From: Pseudomonadota bacterium
Lineage (GTDB): Bacteria; Pseudomonadota; Alphaproteobacteria; Rhizobiales; Aestuariivirgaceae
Reading direction: 5' to 3'
DNA: 64,000 bases
NCBI GenBank assembly: GCA_020161855.1
Contig: JAIUNJ010000003.1
Location: forward strand, 372,001 to 436,000
Numbering within the stretch: the stretch's first letter is position 1; every line of letters starts with the position of its first letter. Shown here in pieces: positions 43,144-55,097 of the stretch. The notes below the pieces were generated by a model that was not told the origin of the DNA, did not search any database, and worked only from the letters and a program-made list of their open reading frames with translations. The translations under genes were made by a program, and so were the position numbers.

Positions 43144-44346
43144 TTAGAGCCACGGCGGCAGCTCGAAAGGCTGCTCGATGTATGGCTCTGGTGCAATAAG
43201 GGCCGGCGATTCCCCGGGACTACGCAGTTGATAGAAGAGATGCGGTATTCCAAGCGATGGATCTTGCGTTGCATCCGGATAGGGTACCGCAGCCTGCCAT
43301 GTCGGATGATAGTGAATCATGCCTACGACGCTGCGGTAAGGAATATCGATCAATGCCTTTGCAATGCGGCGGTTGATTTCCCCATTGCCGGGTTCGCCCG
43401 TGCCTCCGGCAACCGCCGCCGCAATGGCATAATGATGCAGCGAGGAGTAGGGCTGGCATCCGATTTCAGGAGTCGATAGCGGCCCGAAACGCGCCCGATA
43501 GTTCGCCGCGAACTTCTTGCCGATCTCATCGCGCGGCAGGCCGATCACCGTGCAGGTGATAACGCCCCTCGCCTTCTCTCCCGTAATTTCCGAGAAAGCA
43601 CTGTGCAGTGCGCCATACTGCAAATAGAGCAACGATGGCAGCGGCTTCTCCATGAATTGCAGATGAAATCGTGCCAGGTCACCGGCATGAAAATGCGTCA
43701 TCGCAACGATGGCCGGATCATGAACACGAATCTTTTCAAGTGCCTCCCGCCAGTCGGCATTTGTCGGATGGATCTGCGGAGCAATTGGCAACTCCCAACC
43801 GAATTTCGGCGCAGAGACCGCCATCGCATTGGCGATGACAATGCTGTAGGGCTTCGGACCCGAAATGATCGCAACCCGGCGGTTGCGCGGCCGCCAGCGA
43901 TGGCTGTCGCGCAGCCACGACAGGAACTTGATGAAGCCCTGCCCGTACCAGTACTCGGCAGGATCGCCCATGAAACAGCCGAAATAGCGCGTCGGATCAC
44001 TGGCAACTGTGTCGTGATGCTGCACCAGAGTATTGTGATGGATATAGATGATGCCGGCATCGGCGATTGGCTCGTACTCAGCATTTTGCGGACCGATATT
44101 GTAGCCATTGATGATGGCCGAGGCCCGGTGCTGATGGATAAGTTGCCGCGCGGCCCTCACAACCTCAACAGCGGACTGGTTTCCGGTGTCGACGAACTCA
44201 GCTTCGAGTCGGCGGCCAAGAATGCCTCCGCGTGCATTCACCTCGTCGATCGCCATGCTGAGCCCATTGCGGAACTCGCGCCCATCATTGGCCGATGTTC
44301 CCGTCAGCGGAACCATGCTGCCAATGATGATCGGAGCCGTGCTCAT
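43144..44346 (-). CDS. Signal-less AmiC/FmdD-type binding protein, probable cytoplasmic sensor
   Basis: Protein of 400 residues in the urea/short-chain-amide binding class (AmiC, FmdD, UrtA). It opens straight into the fold (PIIIGSMVPLTGTSANDGREFRNG, then AIDEVNARGGILGRR) with no signal peptide or lipobox, and no upstream start supplies one. It should therefore stay in the cytoplasm, as AmiC does. Many positions match the exported binding protein of the divergent ABC operon. The gene follows the hybrid kinase stop by 3 bases, so the two are coexpressed, and a role as ligand sensor for that kinase is inferred. It could instead be an AmiC-like partner of another regulator. Confidence 0.8.
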   Translation of the reverse strand: MSTAPIIIGSMVPLTGTSANDGREFRNGLSMAIDEVNARGGILGRRLEAEFVDTGNQSAVEVVRAARQLIHQHRASAIINGYNIGPQNAEYEPIADAGIIYIHHNTLVQHHDTVASDPTRYFGCFMGDPAEYWYGQGFIKFLSWLRDSHRWRPRNRRVAIISGPKPYSIVIANAMAVSAPKFGWELPIAPQIHPTNADWREALEKIRVHDPAIVAMTHFHAGDLARFHLQFMEKPLPSLLYLQYGALHSAFSEITGEKARGVITCTVIGLPRDEIGKKFAANYRARFGPLSTPEIGCQPYSSLHHYAIAAAVAGGTGEPGNGEINRRIAKALIDIPYRSVVGMIHYHPTWQAAVPYPDATQDPSLGIPHLFYQLRSPGESPALIAPEPYIEQPFELPPWL

Positions 44347-44349
44347 GCG

Positions 44350-45882
44350 TTAAGGCAACTCCGCCATGAGACCGGGCTCGAACAGCAGATTGTGCATGAC
44401 AACGCGTAGCGAGGGTGGACTCACCGGTTTGATGAGCAAGGGAAAGCCCTGCGCACGGATTGAAGCGATCACCTCCGGGGCCGTATCGGCTGTCATGACA
44501 ATCGCCGGGCATGGCTTGTCGAGAAGATCGTTGAGTGTGCCCACAAGATCTGTGCCTTGAATGCGGCCACGCAAGCGGTAATCGGTGAGGATGATGTCGG
44601 GCTGACCGTCCAGTGTGCTGACGGCTTCAGCAACATGGTCAAAATCATCGATGGTGACGACCGTCATTCCCCAGCGCTCGAGCAGAGAGATGATCGCCTC
44701 CCGCAGTATTCTGTCGTCCTCCAGCACAAGACAACACAGGCCTGCGAACTCGCCGCCAATTCTTTCGCTGATCTCCGGTTCATCGCCACCGCTATGCCAG
44801 ACATTGCCGATGGGGACATCGATGAAAAACAGAGATCCTCTGCCCAACTCGCTTGTAAGCCCCAGCGTATGGCCAAGAATAGCCGAGAGGCGCTGCGCAA
44901 TGTTGAGCCCCAGCCCGAGGCTGTGGCGGGCCTGAGCCTGCGTATCACTGACGCGATAGAACTCGGCAAAGATGGCGTCGTGATGCTCCGGTGCGACGCC
45001 AATTCCTGTGTCACCCACCATGATCCTCAGCAGGCGGCCATGCCGTCGGCAACCCACAAGCACGCGGCCAACCTCTGTGTAGTTGATGGCATTGCTGACA
45101 AGGTTGGAAAGAATCCGCTCGAGGAGCACCCGGTCACTGACAACAGCGAGCTTGGAGGGAATGATCCGCAGGTCCAGTCCCTTTTCACGCGCCTGGTGCG
45201 CAAACTGAACCTGCAGCCTGGTGAGAATGGCCGATATCTGGAATGTGGCCACCGAAGGCTCAATCTTTCCGGCATCGAGTTGGCCGATGTTGAGCAAGGC
45301 TCCAAGCAAATCCTCCATGATGGAAACGGAGACTTCCATTGCATGAAGCGCTTGTTTGCGATCAGCCTCTTTGTCTGCGACAAGGCAGGAATAGACAAGA
45401 ATTTTCAGCGATGCGAGCGGCTGCCGGAGATCATGATTGGCGGCTCTCAGAAAGCGCGACTTGCTTTGATCCGCTGCTGTCGCCTTGTCTCTCGCCTGGA
45501 CAAGCGCCATGGAATTGCGGCGGGCTTCGGTCACGTCAGTCAGCAGCGAGATGGCGCCACCAGAAGGCAGGGCTGAATCGATTGCAGAGAGAACACGCCC
45601 ATCGGCACAGATCAGAAGCATACCGTGAAGGCGCAGCACCGGGGCGCCGTTCGGAGACTCAAAACCGATCAAGGTGCCCTGCCGCTTCGTGAACTCAAGC
45701 AGTTCGGACACATTCAACCCAACGAGAGCTGACTGCGGAACGCCGAAGCTCGCAGCGAAGGCGGAGTTGCAATATTCTAACTGGCCGCTGACGGACCAGA
45801 TGCCGAGACCTTGCTGCAGGTGACGGAGCGCGGTGGCTTCATGGCTTGACTGATCTCCCTCCGGGCTCTCAGTGATTGCCAT
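44350..45882 (-). CDS. Soluble PAS hybrid histidine kinase
   Basis: Protein of 510 residues without membrane segments. A PAS-like domain (about 15-120) is followed by a HisKA domain with His150 in RAANHDLRQPL, then an ATPase domain with NLVSNAINY, GDTGIGV and SLGLGLNIA. It ends with a receiver (about 385-505) carrying LEDD, IILTDYRLRG and a Lys in LIKPVS. The lack of membrane parts fits a cytoplasmic input, and the binding-protein gene next to it is the obvious candidate. It overlaps the response regulator gene by 1 base of stop/start, making a regulator-kinase-sensor operon that faces the amidase operon. The family resembles kinases that partner NarL-type regulators. Confidence 0.87.
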   Translation of the reverse strand: MAITESPEGDQSSHEATALRHLQQGLGIWSVSGQLEYCNSAFAASFGVPQSALVGLNVSELLEFTKRQGTLIGFESPNGAPVLRLHGMLLICADGRVLSAIDSALPSGGAISLLTDVTEARRNSMALVQARDKATAADQSKSRFLRAANHDLRQPLASLKILVYSCLVADKEADRKQALHAMEVSVSIMEDLLGALLNIGQLDAGKIEPSVATFQISAILTRLQVQFAHQAREKGLDLRIIPSKLAVVSDRVLLERILSNLVSNAINYTEVGRVLVGCRRHGRLLRIMVGDTGIGVAPEHHDAIFAEFYRVSDTQAQARHSLGLGLNIAQRLSAILGHTLGLTSELGRGSLFFIDVPIGNVWHSGGDEPEISERIGGEFAGLCCLVLEDDRILREAIISLLERWGMTVVTIDDFDHVAEAVSTLDGQPDIILTDYRLRGRIQGTDLVGTLNDLLDKPCPAIVMTADTAPEVIASIRAQGFPLLIKPVSPPSLRVVMHNLLFEPGLMAELP

Positions 45883-46580
45883 CAGCGACCGTCGTTCTTG
45901 GCAGAGCGATTGACGGCAAAGAGAATGGCCGCCTCACGGCTCTTCAGGCCAAGTTTTCGCATGGCATTGCCGAGGTGAACGCGAACTGTTTGCGCTGTGA
46001 TGCCAAGCATTTCCGAGATATCGGGAATGGCGCGCCCCTTGCCCAACAATCCGATGATCTCGTCTTCTCGCCTGCTGAGGCGCGGGCCGTCTGTCCGGTC
46101 TGGCTGAGGTGCATGTTCAGTTGCCACGGGCCAGGAGCGTGTGAGCAGTTCACGCGGAAAATAAACCTCTCCGCCAAAGATCCGTGTGAGTGCGCGGCGT
46201 ATCTCCTCGGCATCGGCGGATTTCGGAATGTAGCCGATGACACCATTCTGGATAGCCTGGCGCACATAATCCGGATCCTCGTGGATCGAAACAACGGCCA
46301 CAGGAACACTGGGAAAACGCCGGCGCAACAACTCAAGCCCCTTGAAGTCCTTTACGCCCGGCATGACGAGATCAACGAGAATGAGGCTGATGTAGGGATC
46401 GTGATCAAGGATCGTCAGGGCTTCCTCGAATGTCGCAGCCTCCTTGATGTCGATGCTGGCATCAATACCACGCGCCACCTGCTTCAGCGATTCACGCACG
46501 ACCCAGTGGTCATCGGCAATGAGAATTGTGAAGGCTGGCAAAGGCTTGGGGAGAGGGGCGATCATCGGAGGCTCATCCAT
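45882..46580 (-). CDS. NarL/FixJ-type response regulator
   Basis: Regulator of 232 residues with a receiver (about 17-140; phospho-Asp70 in LILVDLVMPG) and a LuxR-type HTH (about 165-225: LSRREDEIIGLLGKGRAIPDISEMLGITAQTVRVHLGNAMRKLGL). It is the first gene of the minus-strand sensor operon and is divergent from the transporter and amidase genes, whose promoter region (46581-47020) it likely controls. Activation by phosphorylation from the neighbouring kinase is expected. Confidence 0.9.
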   Translation of the reverse strand: MDEPPMIAPLPKPLPAFTILIADDHWVVRESLKQVARGIDASIDIKEAATFEEALTILDHDPYISLILVDLVMPGVKDFKGLELLRRRFPSVPVAVVSIHEDPDYVRQAIQNGVIGYIPKSADAEEIRRALTRIFGGEVYFPRELLTRSWPVATEHAPQPDRTDGPRLSRREDEIIGLLGKGRAIPDISEMLGITAQTVRVHLGNAMRKLGLKSREAAILFAVNRSAKNDGR

Positions 46581-47020: not shown

Positions 47021-48349
47021 ATGACGCTCAAGAGCATTAACAAGGGTGTGCACTCATTGGCGGGCGTGCCGCTCACGAGGCGTACCGCTTTGAAGGCCGC
47101 GCTCGGTGGCGCCGCCTCAACATTGGCTGCGCCCAAGGTCATTGCATCTGGCAACGACAAGCTCATCATCGGTGTTCCGTCGTCACTCTCCACGCCCTAC
47201 GGCGTCGCCGACGACACCGATCACCTGAACGGAACCAAGCTCGCTGTTGAGGAGATCAACGCTGCGGGTGGTGTTCTTGGCAGGGAGATCGAACTCTTCG
47301 TGCCCGACATCGACAAGCTGTCGCCGGAAAGCTGCCGGCAGGCCATTGCAGCATGCATTGACAAGAAGGTGCATGCCATTTCCAACGCCTTCGTTTTCGC
47401 ACCGGTCCCCGCAATGGATGAATCGGTGAAATACAAGTGCCCATACTTGCAGGGCAATACGCAGCGCGACGCGACGCTGGCCTTCAAGGCCGACCCGGTG
47501 AAGTACAGCCACGTCCTCCAGACCGATCCTTCTGAAGTGAACTATGGCTGGACCTATCCGCTCTGGCTGACAAAAATGGAAGAAACGGGCGTGTGGAAGC
47601 CCAAGAACCGGAAGATTCATATTGTTGCCGAACAGGTTGGCTACTGCCAGACCATTCTGAAAGCCGCGAAGGAGGCGATTCCGAAGTACAACTTCGAACT
47701 CGCCGCAGTCACCGACATCCAGTATCCCGTGAACGACTGGAGCCCGGTCATTCAGAAGCTCAAGGAAGTCGACGCAGCCGCGATCATGATCGATCACTGG
47801 GTGGCTGCCGAATATGCAGCCTTCTGCAAGCAATTCAGCGAAGACCCGGTGCCGGGCTCCATCGTGTATCTGCAATATGGTCCATCGCAACCCGAGTTCC
47901 TGCAGCTCGGCGGCGCGGCGACAGAAGGCTTCTGCTGGAGCACGGTTCTGGGCGTCTATGGCGATCAGACCGGCCAGGATTTCCGAAAGAAATATCTCGC
48001 CAAGTACCCCGAGTTCACTGGCAACATGGGCCTTGTTTACACTGGCAATGGCTACGACATCGTCCAGTACCTCAAGCGCGCCTGGGAGGCCACCGGCAAG
48101 CCGGAAGATTTTGCAGCAAACTGCAAGTGGATCCGCGAGAACCCCTATCGTGGCGTCTGCGGCATGATGGACATGAACAACGAATATCAGGAAGCCCTGC
48201 ACTACCCGGACAACGGGTTTGGCAACCAGGCTGCCGAGCTCGAGAAGGGCATGAGCCAGCTCTTCGTTCAGGTTCAGGACGGAGAACACAAGATTATCTG
48301 GCCTGGCGAGATTGCTGAATCCAAGCTTCGTCCTTCACCTTGGTGGTGA
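47021..48349 (+). CDS. Exported amide/urea-type binding protein of ABC importer
   Basis: Protein of 442 residues, similar in fold to AmiC/FmdD/UrtA. A twin-arginine signal is visible (LTRRTALKAALGGAAST, cleavage near IASG), so it is probably exported folded. The mature part shows NGTKLAVEEINAAGGVLGREIELFVPD, a typical first lobe, and YLQYGPSQPEFLQLGG in the second lobe, which resembles the cytoplasmic paralogue (LYLQYGALHSAFSEITG). It would capture a short amide and deliver it to the LivH/LivM-type permeases encoded downstream. It is the first gene of the operon, with a very strong ribosome-binding sequence. Confidence 0.9.
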   Translation: MTLKSINKGVHSLAGVPLTRRTALKAALGGAASTLAAPKVIASGNDKLIIGVPSSLSTPYGVADDTDHLNGTKLAVEEINAAGGVLGREIELFVPDIDKLSPESCRQAIAACIDKKVHAISNAFVFAPVPAMDESVKYKCPYLQGNTQRDATLAFKADPVKYSHVLQTDPSEVNYGWTYPLWLTKMEETGVWKPKNRKIHIVAEQVGYCQTILKAAKEAIPKYNFELAAVTDIQYPVNDWSPVIQKLKEVDAAAIMIDHWVAAEYAAFCKQFSEDPVPGSIVYLQYGPSQPEFLQLGGAATEGFCWSTVLGVYGDQTGQDFRKKYLAKYPEFTGNMGLVYTGNGYDIVQYLKRAWEATGKPEDFAANCKWIRENPYRGVCGMMDMNNEYQEALHYPDNGFGNQAAELEKGMSQLFVQVQDGEHKIIWPGEIAESKLRPSPWW

Positions 48350-48365
48350 TTGGACGGTGCGGGCA

Positions 48366-49091
48366 ATGAAGTTCAAGTCCACGCCTATCTTCACGTGTGA
48401 GGGCCTGTCGCTCGACTTGGGCGGGCGGGAGGTCCTGCGCGACATTGGCCTTGAACTTCACCCAGGCGAAGTGCTCGGAATCATTGGCCCGAACGGCGCC
48501 GGCAAGACAAGCTTGCTGGAGATCCTTTCGGGCCGTTATCGTCCCAAGACGGGCAAAGTCACCTTTGAGGGACAGGACATTACCAGCCTGCCCCTGTTTG
48601 AGCGCGCCAGGCGCGGCATTGGCCGCACTTACCAGACCCCGCTGGTGCCGGAAGACCTGACGGTCGGTGAAACATTCAAGGCGGTGCGGCAGGCCTTCCG
48701 CCCTTGGCTTACCCGCTTTGATGCCGAGTACGGCGCAAATCTCGTGCACTTTCGCACCCCTCACGACAAACCAAACTCTGGTCTCAAGACATTCGAGCGG
48801 CGCAAGCTGCTCTTGTCCTGCCTGCTGATGCGGCAGCCGAAGGTGTTGCTGATGGATGAACCGGCGGCGGGACTGATCAACGCGGAGATAGACGAGATTG
48901 ATCAGATCCTTCGCATGCTCTCCAAGGAAATGAACATGGCTGTTCTTATAGTCGAGCATCGCATCGAGCTTCTCGAGTCGATCGCCGACCGTGTCATCGT
49001 CATGGACGCTGGCGAAATCATCGCACGCGGTGAACTGGAAGAGATCATCGATAGCCCCGCAGTCCGTGCTGCATATTTTGAAGCGCATTGA
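48366..49091 (+). CDS. LivG/UrtD-type ABC ATPase with missing signature motif
   Basis: ATPase of 241 residues. Walker A is GPNGAGKTS and Walker B is VLLMDEP with the following AAGL, and VEHRIELL supplies the H-loop. Where the ABC signature LSxGQ should be, the sequence reads LKTFERRKLLLSCLLM, so the nucleotide-contacting Ser-Gly-Gly is absent. The partner LivF-like ATPase has an intact signature. The dimer should therefore have one normal and one weak site. ATG at 48366 is the chosen start, 16 bases after the binding-protein stop. In-frame upstream starts would overlap that gene. Confidence 0.87.
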   Translation: MKFKSTPIFTCEGLSLDLGGREVLRDIGLELHPGEVLGIIGPNGAGKTSLLEILSGRYRPKTGKVTFEGQDITSLPLFERARRGIGRTYQTPLVPEDLTVGETFKAVRQAFRPWLTRFDAEYGANLVHFRTPHDKPNSGLKTFERRKLLLSCLLMRQPKVLLMDEPAAGLINAEIDEIDQILRMLSKEMNMAVLIVEHRIELLESIADRVIVMDAGEIIARGELEEIIDSPAVRAAYFEAH

Positions 49092-49099
49092 GGACAGCA

Positions 49100-49810
49100 A
49101 TGAACGAGGTTCTCAAGGTTGAAGGTTTGTCCGCAGGCTACGGTCCTCTGCGGGTCATCCACGATCTCGACCTTGTTGTGAATCCAGGCGAACGCGTCGG
49201 CATCGTAGGCCTCAACGGCCACGGCAAGACCACGCTTTTCTATGCCATCGCAGGCCTCACCGGCTGGCAGCGCGGTTCGATTCTGCTGACCGGCAAGCAG
49301 ATTGGCCGCACGCGCAGCCAGGGCCCGGGCCGCTATACCCACCAGATTGTGCGGCAGGGTCTCGCGATCATGCCGCAAGGCGATGAGATCTTTCAGGGCC
49401 TCACCGTCGAAGAGCACCTCGATTCAGGGGCTTTCACACCCGATGCCTGGCGAACCCGCAAAGAGCGGAAAGAGCGCGTACTCGATATCTTTGAACCTCT
49501 CCGCAAGCTGATGCGGATGCCGGTAGGCAGATTGTCGGGAGGCGAGCGGCGCATGGTGTCCATCGGCCGCGGCTTGATGACCGATGCCAAACTCTACCTT
49601 GCCGATGAACCTTCACTGGGGCTCGCACCAAAGATCGGCATGGCTGTGATGGAGGCACTGCTCGCCATAAATCTCAAGGACAGCGCCATGTTGATCGCCG
49701 AGCAGAATGTCGCCCTGCTTGAAGGCAAGGTCGACCGCGTCATCGGCATGCATGCAGGAAAGCTGAAAGGCGAAGCCTCATCTTCATTCCGCTTGTCGGG
49801 AAATCGCTGA
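49100..49810 (+). CDS. LivF/UrtE-type ABC ATPase
   Basis: ATPase of 236 residues with Walker A GLNGHGKTT, signature LSGGERRMVSIGRGL, Walker B YLADEPSLGLAP and a C-terminal segment (AEQNVALLEGKVDRVIGMHAGK) typical of LivF/UrtE. GAGGA precedes the ATG, 8 bases after the LivG-like stop. It would form a heterodimer with the signature-less partner to power amide uptake. Confidence 0.9.
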   Translation: MNEVLKVEGLSAGYGPLRVIHDLDLVVNPGERVGIVGLNGHGKTTLFYAIAGLTGWQRGSILLTGKQIGRTRSQGPGRYTHQIVRQGLAIMPQGDEIFQGLTVEEHLDSGAFTPDAWRTRKERKERVLDIFEPLRKLMRMPVGRLSGGERRMVSIGRGLMTDAKLYLADEPSLGLAPKIGMAVMEALLAINLKDSAMLIAEQNVALLEGKVDRVIGMHAGKLKGEASSSFRLSGNR

Positions 49811-49820
49811 GGACCAGTTC

Positions 49821-50723
49821 ATGGATATAGCCTTCATCTTCGTCAACGCCATCACAGTCGCCGCGATCTACGGGCTCATCGCTGTCGCCGTATCGATCAC
49901 GTGGTCCAGCCTTGGCCTCATCAACCTGGCCTATGGTTTTATCTATTCATTTGCTGGCTATTCAGCCTGGCTGGTGGCGACCTATGTCGCCCGCCAATAC
50001 CTGGATCCAGCGCTGCATCCATTCGTGATCGCCGCCACCGGCATCCTCGCGGGCGCGCTCGGAGGCATCCTCGTCTGCCTCGTGGTGTTTATCCCGCTGC
50101 ACGACAAGCCTGCTTTCACCTCGCGCGGCATGATCGCCACCTTGGCGATCAGCCTTATCGGCAGCCAATTGCTCCTGATGGCGTTCGGCCCCACGGCAAA
50201 GTCCCTGCCTGAACTCTTCGGCCGCTGGCGCGTCAAGTTCATGGATATCACGCTGACCGCCGACAAGATCGGCATCGTCGTGTGCTCGGCGCTCATGCTC
50301 GCCGTCGTTGTCATGTGGATGCGCTCAAGCCGTCGCGGACTTGAGATCAGGGCGATGATGATGAACCCGCATGCTGCCTCGATTGTCGGCATCGGCATCC
50401 GCCGCACCGGAATCTACGTGATGGCGCTGACGGGTGCCATGGCGGGGTTGGCAGCAGTCTTGCTTTCACAGACTTACTTCATCTCACCATTCTCCGGCCT
50501 TACCCCTCTCATCAAAGGCGTGTCCATCGCCTTGTGCGGCGGCCTTGGCTCAATTCAGGGCGCGGTCATCGCCGCCATACTTCTTGGCCTTGTAGAGGCG
50601 CTGACCAACAAGTTCATGGGCGGTCAGTATGTTCTGATGACCCAGTTCCTCTTCATCATCCTCGTACTTATCGTCAGGCCGCGCGGCATCTCGGGCCTGC
50701 TGGACAAAGCCCGGGAGCAATAA
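49821..50723 (+). CDS. LivH/UrtB-type ABC permease
   Basis: Membrane protein of 300 residues with about eight helices and the family motifs YGLIAVAVSITWSSLGLINLAYG near the N-terminus and GVSIALCGGLGSIQGAVIAAILLGLVEAL near the C-terminus. GAGGA lies upstream. It pairs with the fusion permease encoded 3 bases downstream to form the channel. Confidence 0.9.
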   Translation: MDIAFIFVNAITVAAIYGLIAVAVSITWSSLGLINLAYGFIYSFAGYSAWLVATYVARQYLDPALHPFVIAATGILAGALGGILVCLVVFIPLHDKPAFTSRGMIATLAISLIGSQLLLMAFGPTAKSLPELFGRWRVKFMDITLTADKIGIVVCSALMLAVVVMWMRSSRRGLEIRAMMMNPHAASIVGIGIRRTGIYVMALTGAMAGLAAVLLSQTYFISPFSGLTPLIKGVSIALCGGLGSIQGAVIAAILLGLVEALTNKFMGGQYVLMTQFLFIILVLIVRPRGISGLLDKAREQ

Positions 50724-50726
50724 GTC

Positions 50727-52385
50727 ATGAGTGACGCCACAACCCCAAAGACTTATCGCTGGAAAAATCCATTGTCGGCGTGGGAAACAACGACCGGCAA
50801 TGATGAAGCAGATTCAATCACCGTTGCCGATCCCGCCATGCCGTGGCAGGCGAGCAAAGGTTTCAAAGTCGAAACCCATCCCGTCGGCCGGTTGAAGTAT
50901 TTCGTTGTCTGGCCAGCACATGGTGCACGTACATGGGACCGGGCACGCTGGTGGCCGACGCGGCGCAACTTTCTGAACATCAAGGGCCTCTATAATCGCA
51001 AGACAGCTGTGGCCGAGAAGAAGATTCTCGACCGGAAGCCGATCTATTGGTTGCTCTGCCTCATTGCGCTGGCTCTCGGCCCCATCCTCTTCCCCGAGAA
51101 CCAGACGAACGCATTGCTGACGGCAGGTGCAACATTCGGAATCTTCGCCGCCATCAACGTCTGCTGGACCCTGATCATCGGGACCGCGTCGATCTTCTCG
51201 CTCGCAACCTATGCCGTCGTCGGCACAGCAGCTTTCGTCACCTCGTTCCTGTCAATCCAGTATGGCGTGCCGTGGTACTTTCTGATGCCTGCCGGGGCCC
51301 TCATCGGCCTTGCCTTTGGTGTGCTCATTGCCATCCCGGCCCTGCGGCTTGACGGCTTCTACTACGCCCTCCTCACCCTTGGGCTGAACGAATTGTTCCG
51401 AGTGTTTTTCACCACATCAAAGCAGTTTGGCTCCGCTTCCGGAGGCCTCTATGGCGCCGATTCCTTCATCAATCCGGACTGGGAGCCGTTGACGCAATCC
51501 TATGTCGCTTACTACGCGGCATTCGGGCTTCTCGTCGCCAGCCTGTTTCTGTTTCGCTTCATCAATGGCAAGCGTCTCGGCCGCGTGCTGCGCATGGCGC
51601 CGGAGAAGCGAGAGGCCTTCGCCGCTGCCTGCGGCGTCGACTACAAGCGTGCTCGCATCACGATCTTCCTTGCAACGTCGACGGCCCTGGGCTTCATCGG
51701 CGGCTTCTACGCGGCACAGTACCGTGGCGTGGCCTATTCGATCTTCGACTTCCAGACGGTGTTGCTCGGCCTCGCCATGGTGACCATCGGCGGCATCGGA
51801 CGGGCGGAAGGGGCAGTTCTTGGCACACTGGTCGTGATCTTCCTGAGAGATGTGCTGATCGAGTTCGGTCCCATCCGCTATTTGATCATTGGTGCCGCCA
51901 TGCTCGCCGTCGTCCTGTTCCTCAACAACGGCTATTTCGGCATTCGCAAGCAGTTCAACGCGTGGCGCGCCAAGAAGCGCGGAGAATGGCGTTCAACACG
52001 CGCCGAGAAGGGCGGCGAACTGCTTCCGGAAGAGGCAACAGAGATCGATGACAAGGATCACCTCTACTTCCGCCGCTACGACAAGATGCAACGCGACTAT
52101 CTGAAGACACTGATCAAGCCGGAGATCATCGAAGAACATCGCCGCCAACCCCTTGGACAGCACTCGGAGGCCCTGGAACGCGTCCTGCTCTATTTCCGCC
52201 GCGCAAAAATGGAGGACAAATACGCCTTGCGCAGCGCAGGCCCTCACGGTCCCTACAAGATCATCGCCTTCTCCGGCACACGGGGCGTATCGCCGCGTCT
52301 GGTCGATGACCGTGAATTCGTGACGCTCGATGAAGCATACCACGGCGTATTCATGCGCCGCGTGCACGATCTTCTGGAAAGCTGA
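50727..52385 (+). CDS. LivM-type permease fused to a dimethylformamidase small-subunit-like domain
   Basis: Protein of 552 residues in three parts. Residues 1-105 are a soluble cytoplasmic lead (WKNPLSAWETTTG, WPAHGARTWDRARWW) not typical of permeases. About 106-405 is a LivM/UrtC permease with helices and GFYYALLTLGLNELFRV, GFIGGFYAAQYRGVAY and VTIGGIGRAEGAVLGTL. About 441-552 is a domain matching the DmfA1-like protein encoded next: shared IEEHRR, YAL/YAV, FSG, TLxEAxHGVF and a final DL. I estimate about 40 percent identity by eye. Only 10 bases separate the genes, so a frameshift artefact is unlikely: the copies are separate and both complete. The fusion suggests that the hydrolase attaches to the importer on the inner face (inference). 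Confidence 0.88.
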   Translation: MSDATTPKTYRWKNPLSAWETTTGNDEADSITVADPAMPWQASKGFKVETHPVGRLKYFVVWPAHGARTWDRARWWPTRRNFLNIKGLYNRKTAVAEKKILDRKPIYWLLCLIALALGPILFPENQTNALLTAGATFGIFAAINVCWTLIIGTASIFSLATYAVVGTAAFVTSFLSIQYGVPWYFLMPAGALIGLAFGVLIAIPALRLDGFYYALLTLGLNELFRVFFTTSKQFGSASGGLYGADSFINPDWEPLTQSYVAYYAAFGLLVASLFLFRFINGKRLGRVLRMAPEKREAFAAACGVDYKRARITIFLATSTALGFIGGFYAAQYRGVAYSIFDFQTVLLGLAMVTIGGIGRAEGAVLGTLVVIFLRDVLIEFGPIRYLIIGAAMLAVVLFLNNGYFGIRKQFNAWRAKKRGEWRSTRAEKGGELLPEEATEIDDKDHLYFRRYDKMQRDYLKTLIKPEIIEEHRRQPLGQHSEALERVLLYFRRAKMEDKYALRSAGPHGPYKIIAFSGTRGVSPRLVDDREFVTLDEAYHGVFMRRVHDLLES

Positions 52386-52395
52386 GGCTGGCGCC

Positions 52396-52773
52396 ATGGT
52401 GAAGGCAAAGGCAAACAAGAGCGACGCCTCCGTTCCTCCGGCCGACAAGGACATCCATGTCCGCGATCACTTCGACCAGATGACCCGGAAGTACCTGTTG
52501 AGCGTGCTTTCCGACGAGTTGATTGAGGAGCATCGCCGCGGACCTTCGCATATGAGCGAGCCGCTTGCCCGGCTTCTCGCCTGGAGCCAGAGGCGGCCGC
52601 TTGCCGAACAATATGCCGTGAAGGCCGAGGGCGATGGCAGTTTCCGCCTGATTTCCTTCAGCGGCCTGCGCCACCGTAAACCGGACTACGTCGGCGATGA
52701 AAGCTTCGCCACACTCGCGGAGGCTCGCCATGGCGTCTTCCTCCGCCACATCAAGGATCTCACAGGGAAGTAA
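52396..52773 (+). CDS. N,N-dimethylformamidase small (alpha) subunit-like protein
   Basis: Protein of 125 residues, close to the size of DMFase alpha subunits (about 130). A charged, Lys/Ala-rich lead of about 20 residues precedes a conserved part with HFDQMTRKYLL, IEEHRRGPSHMSEPL, AEQYAVKAEG, FRLISFSG and HGVFLRHIKDL. In known enzymes this subunit packs on the catalytic large subunit, which is encoded 2 bases downstream here. It has a clear paralogue as the C-terminal domain of the permease just upstream, so two small-subunit-like domains are available for one large subunit. Acting on DMF itself is not proven. The ATG follows the permease stop by 10 bases. Confidence 0.85.
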   Translation: MVKAKANKSDASVPPADKDIHVRDHFDQMTRKYLLSVLSDELIEEHRRGPSHMSEPLARLLAWSQRRPLAEQYAVKAEGDGSFRLISFSGLRHRKPDYVGDESFATLAEARHGVFLRHIKDLTGK

Positions 52774-52775
52774 AG

Positions 52776-55097
52776 ATGGCTCAGCAAAAGATCTTCGGCT
52801 ACGCAAACCGGATATCGGTCAAGCCCGGGGAAGAGATCACTTTTCATGTGAACTGTGATGGTGCGAGCGAGGCCAAGGCCCAGCTTGTCCAGTTGATCCA
52901 TGGTGACACCCACAAGGACGGTCCCGGCCATATCGAACGCGAAGTCGACGGACCGGCCAACGGCACCTGGCAGGTCAAGAAGCAGTTCACGCAGCTCGGC
53001 AGCTTTCTCGAGGTTGACGATCCCCAGCAGAAGCTCGCAGTCACGGGCGCGCTTTCCCTCATGGCCTTCATCTGGCCAACCCGAACGAAGAAGGGAATCC
53101 GTCAGACAATTCTCGGTCGCTGGGATACATTCCGGAACGCGGGCTACGCCCTTGGAATCAATCCAGCCGGCCATCTTGAGTTCTGGGTCGGCGACGGCAA
53201 GGAAGTTGACTATGTCACCGCCGAACTGCCGCTGCTCGACAAGGTCTGGTATCTGGTCGGCGTCTCATATGACCCTGCAACGGGCCGCGCCGAAATCTAC
53301 CAGGAAGGGGTACTGAACCGCTACAATTCTCTCATCGGCAAGGTGGTTCCCTATGAATTTGCCAGCCACACTTCGCAGAAATTCCGCTTCAAGCCCTCAC
53401 ATCTTCCGGCAACGCCGTTCCTGATCGCAGGCGCGCGCGACCAGCATGAGCTGCGCGGCCCCTTCGTCAGCGATCATTTCGCCGGCAAGATTGACCGGCC
53501 CGCGATCTGCATGCGTGCCCTGAGCCGCAAGGACTTTGATGAGTTGAAGCAGGGCGCTTTGCCGCCAAAAGACAGCGTGCTCGCCTACTGGGATACGGCA
53601 GCGGGCTACACGGCAGATGGTATCGGACCCGATGTCATTGACACCGGTCCCCATGGTCTCACGGCAAGGGGTGTGAACCATCCCGTCCGCGCCATGACTG
53701 GCTGGAACTGGAACGGCAGAGATGACTGTTTCCGTCTTGATCCCTCGCAGTACGGTGGCATCGAGTTCCACCCTGACAGCGTCACTGATTGCCGCTGGGA
53801 GGTGACCAGCCGCATGACGGTGCCTGAAAATCTGCCAAGCGGAATCTATGCCATGCGCCTGCGCGTAGGTCCCGGCACAGGCATCGCAGAGGAATACATC
53901 GTCTTCGTCGTGAGGCCACGCACGCCCAAGGGCAAGCTGTGCTTCCTCGTCCCCTCGGCGAGCTATCTCGCCTATGCCAACGAGATGTTGAGCTTTGAAG
54001 CCCACATCATCCAGCCGATGACCGGCCAGCCGCCCGTCGTCACGGACCTGGATATCGAGACCTACGAGCACGGTGAATACGGCCTCTCGACCTACGATCA
54101 TTTCGAAGATGGTGCTGGTGTTTGTTTCACGTCCTATCTGCGCCCGATCATCAACATGCGCCCCAAGCACCGGATGTCGGGCATGAACGTGACCTGGCAA
54201 TTCCCGGCTGACCTGTCGATCGTCGCCTGGATCGATCACATGGGATATGATTGCGACTTCATCACCGATGAGGATCTCCATCGTGAAGGACTGGACATTC
54301 TCACCCCCTATAATTGCGTGATCACGGGCACGCATCCTGAGTATGTGTCCGAGCGGATGCTGGACGCGCAGGAGGACTATGTGGCTGGCGGCGGGCGCCT
54401 CATCTATATGGGCGGCAACGGATACTACTGGGCCGTAGGTTTCGCCGGGGACAATCCGGAATGCATGGAGGTTCGCAAACTCGATTCAGGCATGCGTGCC
54501 TGGGCCGCGCGGCCTGGCGAACACTATCTCCAGACAACCGGAGAAAAGAGCGGCCTTTGGCGAAATCGCGGACGCGCGCCCCAGAAGCTGACAGGCGTCG
54601 GCTTCATTGCTGAAGGCTTCGAAACGGCCGCACCCTACCGGAAGATGCCTGATGCCTGGCATCGCACTGTGTCCTGGATCACCAAAGGTGTGGAAGGCGA
54701 GATCATCGGCGACCAGGGCCTGGCCTATGGCGCTGCTGCCGGCGTCGAACTCGACCGCTATGATCTCTCGCTCGGCACGCCACCGCACACCAAGATCATC
54801 GCGTCATCAGGCGGGCATTCGGATAACTACGTGCTGGTCACAGAGGAGCTGCTGTATGCCTATGCAGGCCTCGTTGGTTCGCTAGATTATCGCATTCGCG
54901 CCGACATGACGTATTTCACGGCACCAAACAATGGCGCTGTCTTCTGCACAGGTTCAATCGGCTACGGACAGGCGCTTCCGGCGAACGGCTTCGATAACTC
55001 GGCAGCCAAGGTGCTTGCCAACGTGGTGAACGCCTTCCTCAAATCCGAACGGCTGCCCGGGCAGCAATGGTCTCTGGAAGAGAAGCAGTGGCGCTGA
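52776..55097 (+). CDS. N,N-dimethylformamidase large (beta) subunit-like amidase
   Basis: Protein of 773 residues, close to DMFase beta (about 760). A LamG-like beta domain (about 90-260) is followed by a C-terminal catalytic region with SYLAYAN (397-401), TYDHFEDGAGV (Tyr440), ITDEDLHREG and GTHPEYVS (Glu522), and a glutamine-amidotransferase-like part (GGRLIYMGGNGYYW). From memory, the Paracoccus enzyme has a mononuclear iron held by two Tyr and one Glu near positions 399, 440 and 521. Tyr397 or Tyr400, Tyr440 and Glu522 fit that set. Expected reaction: hydrolysis of a tertiary or short amide, such as DMF to dimethylamine and formate. It is the last gene of the importer operon, and amine-oxidising genes are not in the window. 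Confidence 0.87.
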   Translation: MAQQKIFGYANRISVKPGEEITFHVNCDGASEAKAQLVQLIHGDTHKDGPGHIEREVDGPANGTWQVKKQFTQLGSFLEVDDPQQKLAVTGALSLMAFIWPTRTKKGIRQTILGRWDTFRNAGYALGINPAGHLEFWVGDGKEVDYVTAELPLLDKVWYLVGVSYDPATGRAEIYQEGVLNRYNSLIGKVVPYEFASHTSQKFRFKPSHLPATPFLIAGARDQHELRGPFVSDHFAGKIDRPAICMRALSRKDFDELKQGALPPKDSVLAYWDTAAGYTADGIGPDVIDTGPHGLTARGVNHPVRAMTGWNWNGRDDCFRLDPSQYGGIEFHPDSVTDCRWEVTSRMTVPENLPSGIYAMRLRVGPGTGIAEEYIVFVVRPRTPKGKLCFLVPSASYLAYANEMLSFEAHIIQPMTGQPPVVTDLDIETYEHGEYGLSTYDHFEDGAGVCFTSYLRPIINMRPKHRMSGMNVTWQFPADLSIVAWIDHMGYDCDFITDEDLHREGLDILTPYNCVITGTHPEYVSERMLDAQEDYVAGGGRLIYMGGNGYYWAVGFAGDNPECMEVRKLDSGMRAWAARPGEHYLQTTGEKSGLWRNRGRAPQKLTGVGFIAEGFETAAPYRKMPDAWHRTVSWITKGVEGEIIGDQGLAYGAAAGVELDRYDLSLGTPPHTKIIASSGGHSDNYVLVTEELLYAYAGLVGSLDYRIRADMTYFTAPNNGAVFCTGSIGYGQALPANGFDNSAAKVLANVVNAFLKSERLPGQQWSLEEKQWR

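Follow-up and report, generated by a model that had tools for sequence, protein, structure and literature searches.

The N,N-dimethylformamidase (DMFase) of Paracoccus (DmfA1/DmfA2; PDB 6lvb) consists of a large and a small subunit, and the small subunit has been described as a protein of its own. According to the accessible part of its published account, two tyrosines and one glutamate are iron ligands, these three together with a histidine, an asparagine and another glutamate are the six residues named as ligands or as needed for catalysis, the large subunit is inactive by itself, and the entrance to the active site is built from both subunits (PMC7686228). Importers of the HAAT type (LivHMGF, UrtABCDE) are made up of a binding protein, two ATPases and two BPD_transp_2 permeases. 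Assemblies of transporter and enzyme are known from UreI with urease and from SulP transporters fused to carbonic anhydrase. The operon that we describe here, which encodes such an importer, resembles the latter assemblies in that an enzyme would be held at the transporter of its substrate, but the transporter is an ATP-driven importer instead of a channel (UreI) or a secondary carrier (SulP), and what the permease carries is one subunit of a two-subunit enzyme that is otherwise separate: in contrast to Paracoccus, the small subunit is here a domain of the ABC permease. Open-licence PMC papers yielded no description of an ABC permease fused to a DMFase subunit, and no paper mentioning both dimethylformamidase and an ABC transporter; this is no proof of novelty. 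The original prediction likewise knew of no described ABC importer permease with a built-in amidase subunit. A 2023 paper on SAR11 and other bacteria names, within a rhodopsin gene cluster, an N,N-dimethylformamidase together with an inner membrane translocator, with no mention of a fusion in its accessible part (PMC10308929).

The window, that is the whole stretch of 64,000 nucleotides analysed, carries its importer and DMFase genes as one co-directional operon of seven genes (47021-55097, from the list of open reading frames), with three divergent genes ahead of it. The features are as follows.

43144..44346, minus strand, binding-protein-like protein with no obvious signal sequence by eye (PF13458; PDB 3h5l, E 2.2e-108)
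44350..45882, minus strand, hybrid sensor histidine kinase (PAS_7, HisKA, HATPase_c, Response_reg)
45882..46580, minus strand, LuxR-type response regulator (Response_reg, GerE)
47021..48349, plus strand, periplasmic substrate-binding protein of the importer (PF13458; PDB 3h5l, E 4.9e-41)
48360..49091, plus strand, LivG-type ATPase (PF00005; best NCBIfam match UrtD, 158.5 bits, below its cut-off)
49088..49810, plus strand, LivF-type ATPase (PF00005; best NCBIfam match UrtE, 136.1 bits, below its cut-off)
49821..50723, plus strand, LivH-type permease without an extra domain (PF02653 at residues 7-283 of 300)
50727..52385, plus strand, LivM-type ABC importer permease with a C-terminal DMFase small-subunit domain, 552 amino acids
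51921..52037, plus strand, linker, permease residues 399-437, predicted cytoplasmic
52038..52382, plus strand, fused DMFase small-subunit (beta) domain, permease residues 438-552
52396..52773, plus strand, free DMFase small subunit, 125 amino acids, with a longer open reading frame from 52330 (phmmer 6lvb_B, E 1.4e-6)
52776..55097, plus strand, DMFase-family large (catalytic) subunit, 773 amino acids (phmmer 6lvb_A, E 7.1e-175; PF20254, E 4.2e-90)

The importer genes agree with their Pfam families, and the BPD_transp_2 membrane domain of the LivM-type permease adjoins LivH-, LivG- and LivF-type proteins and a binding protein. This is the same set as in LivHMGF and UrtABCDE, from which the window permease differs by its enzyme subunit and by an N-terminal extension of about 100 amino acids (window positions 50727-51035), which lies ahead of the first membrane helix and has a lower column identity (0.42). 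Among the matches listed, no curated NCBIfam Liv or Urt model reached its cut-off for the five importer proteins scanned; the LivM-type permease scored 61.5 bits with LivM (cut-off 366) and 48.2 bits with UrtC (cut-off 296.2).

The C-terminus of this permease had been predicted to carry a domain resembling the DMFase small subunit, and both sequence and predicted fold confirm it as a small-subunit domain of the DMFase type: the modelled tail contains the whole small-subunit fold, and the sequence matches together with this predicted fold rule out a chance likeness. The tail is as conserved as the membrane domain (column identity 0.63 for each), with single elements up to 0.81, and residues 406-440, with 0.72, are at the top of the five permease blocks compared. 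The linker has several residues that are invariant across 82 sequences; its helix (residues 406-427) is rich in K and R, nine of which fall within residues 399-442, and is followed by a conserved EKGGE-LPEEA stretch.

A collection holding one genome per species for 84,980 species was scanned with an alignment of seven fused tails, which gave 106 relatives, the best 80 of which were kept; search patterns built from fused tails bring a bias toward the fusion. The search of genomes for the same fusion, proposed along with the original prediction, returned tail and permease in one open reading frame in 79 of these best 80 loci, five of the 79 being cut to fewer than 500 amino acids. In a SAR11 single-cell genome (L069, 520-625), the permease frame is broken near a T run just before the tail, perhaps through an error of sequencing. 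Small subunits were sought among open reading frames of at least 70 amino acids by blastp at E 1e-3, and in 54 of the 80 loci no further one turned up between permease and large subunit (median gap 9 nt); a free small subunit stands between the two in 16 loci, eight loci have the order tail, large, free small, large, and the other two are a locus whose contig ends ahead of the large gene and L069. By record titles, the 80 loci come from Hyphomicrobiales (34), Rhodobacterales (13) and SAR11 (11), the rest being mostly other Alpha-, Beta- and Gammaproteobacteria; single records titled Bacillota, Gemmatimonadota and Klebsiella may, at a guess, be misassigned contigs. A viral origin was rejected, as the viral contigs scanned contained no relative.

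Two tests were independent of the tail and covered 397 genomes from the order to which the window belongs; several of these genomes are represented in the set of 80 loci as well. When the large subunit served as query, 20 matches in 18 genomes were obtained at E 1e-180 or better. Eighteen of these are at least 53% identical, and 15 of them lie behind a LivM-tail gene, two are cut by contig ends and the remaining one belongs to such an operon as its second large subunit. The two remoter matches (49% and 44%; L200 and L201) share this gene order, but their small gene is unfused and overlaps the end of the permease gene by 11 and 17 bases. With the tail-less part of the permease as query (residues 101-425), all 16 matches, in 16 genomes, were tailed, one of them cut by a contig end after 60 tail residues. 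A local oddity of the window is ruled out by these 16 tailed permeases of 16, together with the 79 fused loci of 80.

Farther away, the fusion gives way to separate genes. Liv-type importer genes with adjacent small- and large-subunit genes on the same strand also occur in L032, L034, L038 and, closest to the window, in L200 and L201. All of these encode the small subunit separately; in the last two the gene order is identical, but permease identity is no more than 23-26%. Among the Liv-type importer genes of L032, L034 and L038, the ATPase match falls within a larger open reading frame (610 amino acids in L032), which is possibly a permease-ATPase fusion. In a sample of the class, 65 of 385 genomes have a relative of the large subunit (E 1e-10) and 33 of 385 a small-type domain (E 0.001), fused to LivM in two of the 33 (G000 and G150). 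These two are among ten small-type matches found in open frames of at least 277 amino acids; six of the other long frames appear, on inspection by eye, to be GC-rich read-through that precedes an ordinary small gene (four of them were scanned and had no Pfam match), and the 480-amino-acid frame of G436 was rejected as a permease fusion because its front part looks spurious and matches no Pfam family, which leaves its small subunit free. The tenth frame, in G485 (L235:3791-6328), encodes one protein of 845 amino acids that carries a small-subunit-like domain in front of a DMFase-type large subunit. For 29 large-subunit loci of the class sample (L121-L149), the search located a separate small subunit next to the large one in 17 and none in the other 12. 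Since in the wider family (large subunits 36-49% identical) small subunits, where found, are normally separate genes, the fusion marks one branch. An amidase present where the permease domain is absent, the case raised against the original prediction, was seen only outside the close family, namely in this wider family and in G436 (54% identical), whose free small subunit has no neighbouring importer.

The window enzyme is like the Paracoccus DMFase in the length of the large subunit, the iron site of two tyrosines and one glutamate, the histidine, the asparagine, the glutamate proposed as base and the fold of the small subunit, but the position of F693 is occupied by a tyrosine. Its large subunit, the sole PF20254 match in its genome (an assembly 92% complete), keeps the iron ligands and catalytic residues Y400, Y440, E522, H520, N548 and E658, and in an alignment of 88 large subunits all six are kept in every single-large operon not cut at those sites. 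Two large subunits stand behind the fused permease in eight loci (L092, L099, L101, L103, L104, L105, L108 and L110; six are Bradyrhizobium by title), each with one fused and one free small subunit. Exactly one large subunit in each of the eight is without some of the iron-ligand or catalytic residues. The degenerate copy is the first one in seven loci, with the first tyrosine ligand changed to Phe or Leu, the histidine to Arg and the base glutamate to Ala; in L092 it is the second, with a tyrosine ligand changed to Cys and the base to Ala. These degenerate subunits group together in the large-subunit tree (SH-aLRT 98; sequences shorter than 600 amino acids left out), so that one duplication explains them, and the arrangement would fit an enzyme with one active and one structural half.

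Whether the tail is the working small subunit can be approached by counting. Large and small subunits were counted in 11 whole genomes, and in G676 (estimated 100% complete with 0% contamination, in 90 contigs) there is one DMFA2_C protein and the one small-subunit domain found is the permease tail. If the large subunit alone is inactive here as it is in the accessible account of DMFase (PMC7686228), and if no small subunit was missed, the tail of G676 must complete the enzyme. The window genome contains a single large subunit together with the tail and one free copy, and the other counted genomes hold more DMFase-like proteins elsewhere. As the counts are uneven in G042 (four large and three small matches) and G105 (two large, one small), either the search misses some divergent small subunits or some large subunits have none. 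In 15 operons with both copies (L043, L048 and L052 left out), mean pairwise identity is 75% for the tails, 75% for the large subunits, 76% for the membrane part and 46% for the free copies, the free copies thus changing faster than the tails, which keep pace with the other two; an earlier set, which compared 17 tails and 17 free copies (without L048) with 17 large subunits (without L052, with L048), gave nearly the same result. Over the same 15 operons, pairwise distances of the free copy correlate with those of the large subunit at r 0.88 and those of the tail at r 0.80, and a clear preference of the large subunit for the tail over the free copy is not favoured by these distances. The free copy may accordingly be the main partner of the large subunit in the window's clade, or tail and free copy may both be partners. 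Comparison indicates that the tail acts as a beta subunit.

The original prediction treated the free small subunit as the ordinary one and the tail as the extra, and here the tree of small domains points the other way. In this tree of 124 domains (125 columns, many forks weak), the 18 free copies from the window's clade group together (95/92), and their sister is a set of 18 fused tails from operons of that kind (jointly 100/88); SAR11 fused tails adjoin these free and fused groups (97/91). The free small subunit of the window, placed in this way among fused tails, is most simply a released copy. The eight free copies that precede a second large subunit cluster (93/85) within a different fused group, a weaker one (93/87), and G436's free small subunit, which has a long branch, falls with two other fused tails (100/100). 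Release of free copies from the fused form on three occasions appears to be the simplest reading of the tree. The unfused L195/L196 fall outside the fused group in the small-domain tree (82/94) and inside it in the large-subunit tree (82, long branch), and the trees leave it undecided whether the unfused operons L200 and L201 are ancestral or reverted.

Taken together, we consider it probable that the permease tail is a DMFase-type beta subunit built into an ABC importer, where it docks the amidase, and that hydrolysis at the inner mouth would trap a small neutral amide. The original suggestion that the transporter recruits the amidase is supported by comparison: the 16 tailed permeases of 16, the 54 loci of 80 without another small subunit in between and the tail as the only small domain found in G676 all argue for docking of the amidase on the importer. 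We infer the docking geometry, the hand-over, the trapping, the stoichiometry and the substrate. The large subunit would bind the tail on the cytoplasmic side, which would dock the amidase on the importer; the tail would both anchor and complete the enzyme, with the entrance near the cytoplasmic mouth of the importer; and an amide supplied through the binding protein would be split, as it arrives, into charged products (a methylamine-type amine and an acid) that would not leak back. A LivH/LivM importer contains one LivM. With one tail per importer and an alpha2beta2 DMFase, the second beta subunit would come from elsewhere, either from the tail of a neighbouring importer in genomes with the fused form only or from the free tail copy in the window's clade. 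It is tempting to go further, tentatively and as one possibility among others, and to picture importer and iron amidase as one permanent machine in which the substrate would pass from the pore into the amidase entrance formed by the tail, ATP-driven uptake and hydrolysis being one vectorial step; tail and free copy would then be the two beta positions of an asymmetric alpha2beta2 enzyme in the free-copy clades and, in some Bradyrhizobium-type operons, one large subunit that has lost its catalytic residues would be the partner half.

The free copies themselves invite a plainer explanation. Standing between permease and large subunit in 16 of the 80 loci and ahead of the second large subunit in eight more, and following the large subunit in their distances more closely than the tail does, they would suit a tail that only tethers or assembles the amidase at the membrane, or replaces the small-subunit gene, while import and hydrolysis are unlinked and the free copy, where present, does the enzymatic work. 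We regard such docking without coupling as rather unlikely, though a serious competitor, because no free copy was found between permease and large subunit in 54 of the 80 loci, the tail is more conserved than the free copy and the published small subunit, in the accessible account, is part of the active-site entrance (PMC7686228). The high conservation of the linker would also suit a regulatory tail, which would bind the amide, its product or the large subunit and gate the importer by the supply of free amidase. Regulatory C-terminal domains do occur in some ABC importers, but a pure regulator would leave unexplained the 54 loci in which no other small subunit was found beside the large one, and the model shows the tail with the complete small-subunit fold of DMFase; we judge this reading improbable. 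That the tail is a chance fusion, a functionless leftover duplicate or a sequencing artefact seems hardly credible: a small change of frame could indeed fuse the overlapping genes of unfused operons of the same order (L200, L201), but 79 of the 80 loci have the fusion, and record titles assign most of these to Alpha-, Beta- and Gammaproteobacteria; the tail also equals the membrane domain in conservation.

With regard to the substrate of the importer with its docked amidase, the SAR11 loci have mgsA-, mgsB-, mgsC- and gmaS-like genes downstream of the operon on the same strand, the gmaS-like gene in nine and the mgsA-like gene in seven of the 11 loci by blast clusters. Family searches with representatives gave a class II amidotransferase, a GXGXG protein, a Glu_synthase protein and a type III glutamine synthetase (the last above its cut-off), which we take to be mgsA, mgsB, mgsC and gmaS of the N-methylglutamate (NMG) route for methylamine. 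In L074, L076, L078, L080 and L082, all SAR11, the operon is followed by NMG-type genes, with a PLP enzyme like diaminopropionate ammonia-lyase in the first four. Such genes adjoin the operon in SAR11 but not in the window; in the window genome all four kinds are clustered on a different contig, where proteins that pass the cut-offs of the soxB and soxA families come next. In a Paracoccus that degrades DMF, the NMG route is taken after the DMFase step, according to the accessible part of its description (PMC11381386). Because of these genes near the SAR11 operons and in the window genome and of this use in Paracoccus, our best guess is that the substrate would be a small N-alkyl amide, possibly N-methylated. 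The large subunit is also related to N-acetyl-beta-phenylalanine acylase (8huy) and, in the part of the account available, a related pair of Paracoccus aminophilus was not linked to DMF use (PMC4543880), both of which call for caution against naming DMF itself. The divergent trio (window 43144-46580) is also found beside the operon in 14 of the 80 loci (e.g., L040, L042, L045), many of the 80 being truncated. It is likely a sensing system for the imported compound, in which the protein of 43144..44346 is, by its position beside kinase and regulator, the probable ligand sensor for the divergent regulators.

If this reading is true, ABC importers can carry an enzyme subunit as part of a permease, and small neutral amides, which can leak out of cells again, would be trapped by hydrolysis at entry. 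The family would then offer a test case for channelling between transporter and enzyme that comes with natural variants, namely operons with the fused form only, with the fused form and a free copy, and with two large subunits of which one is degenerate. By record titles the system is present in SAR11, Bradyrhizobium and Rhodobacterales, and its link with methylamine-type genes in SAR11 points to an overlooked source of organic nitrogen.
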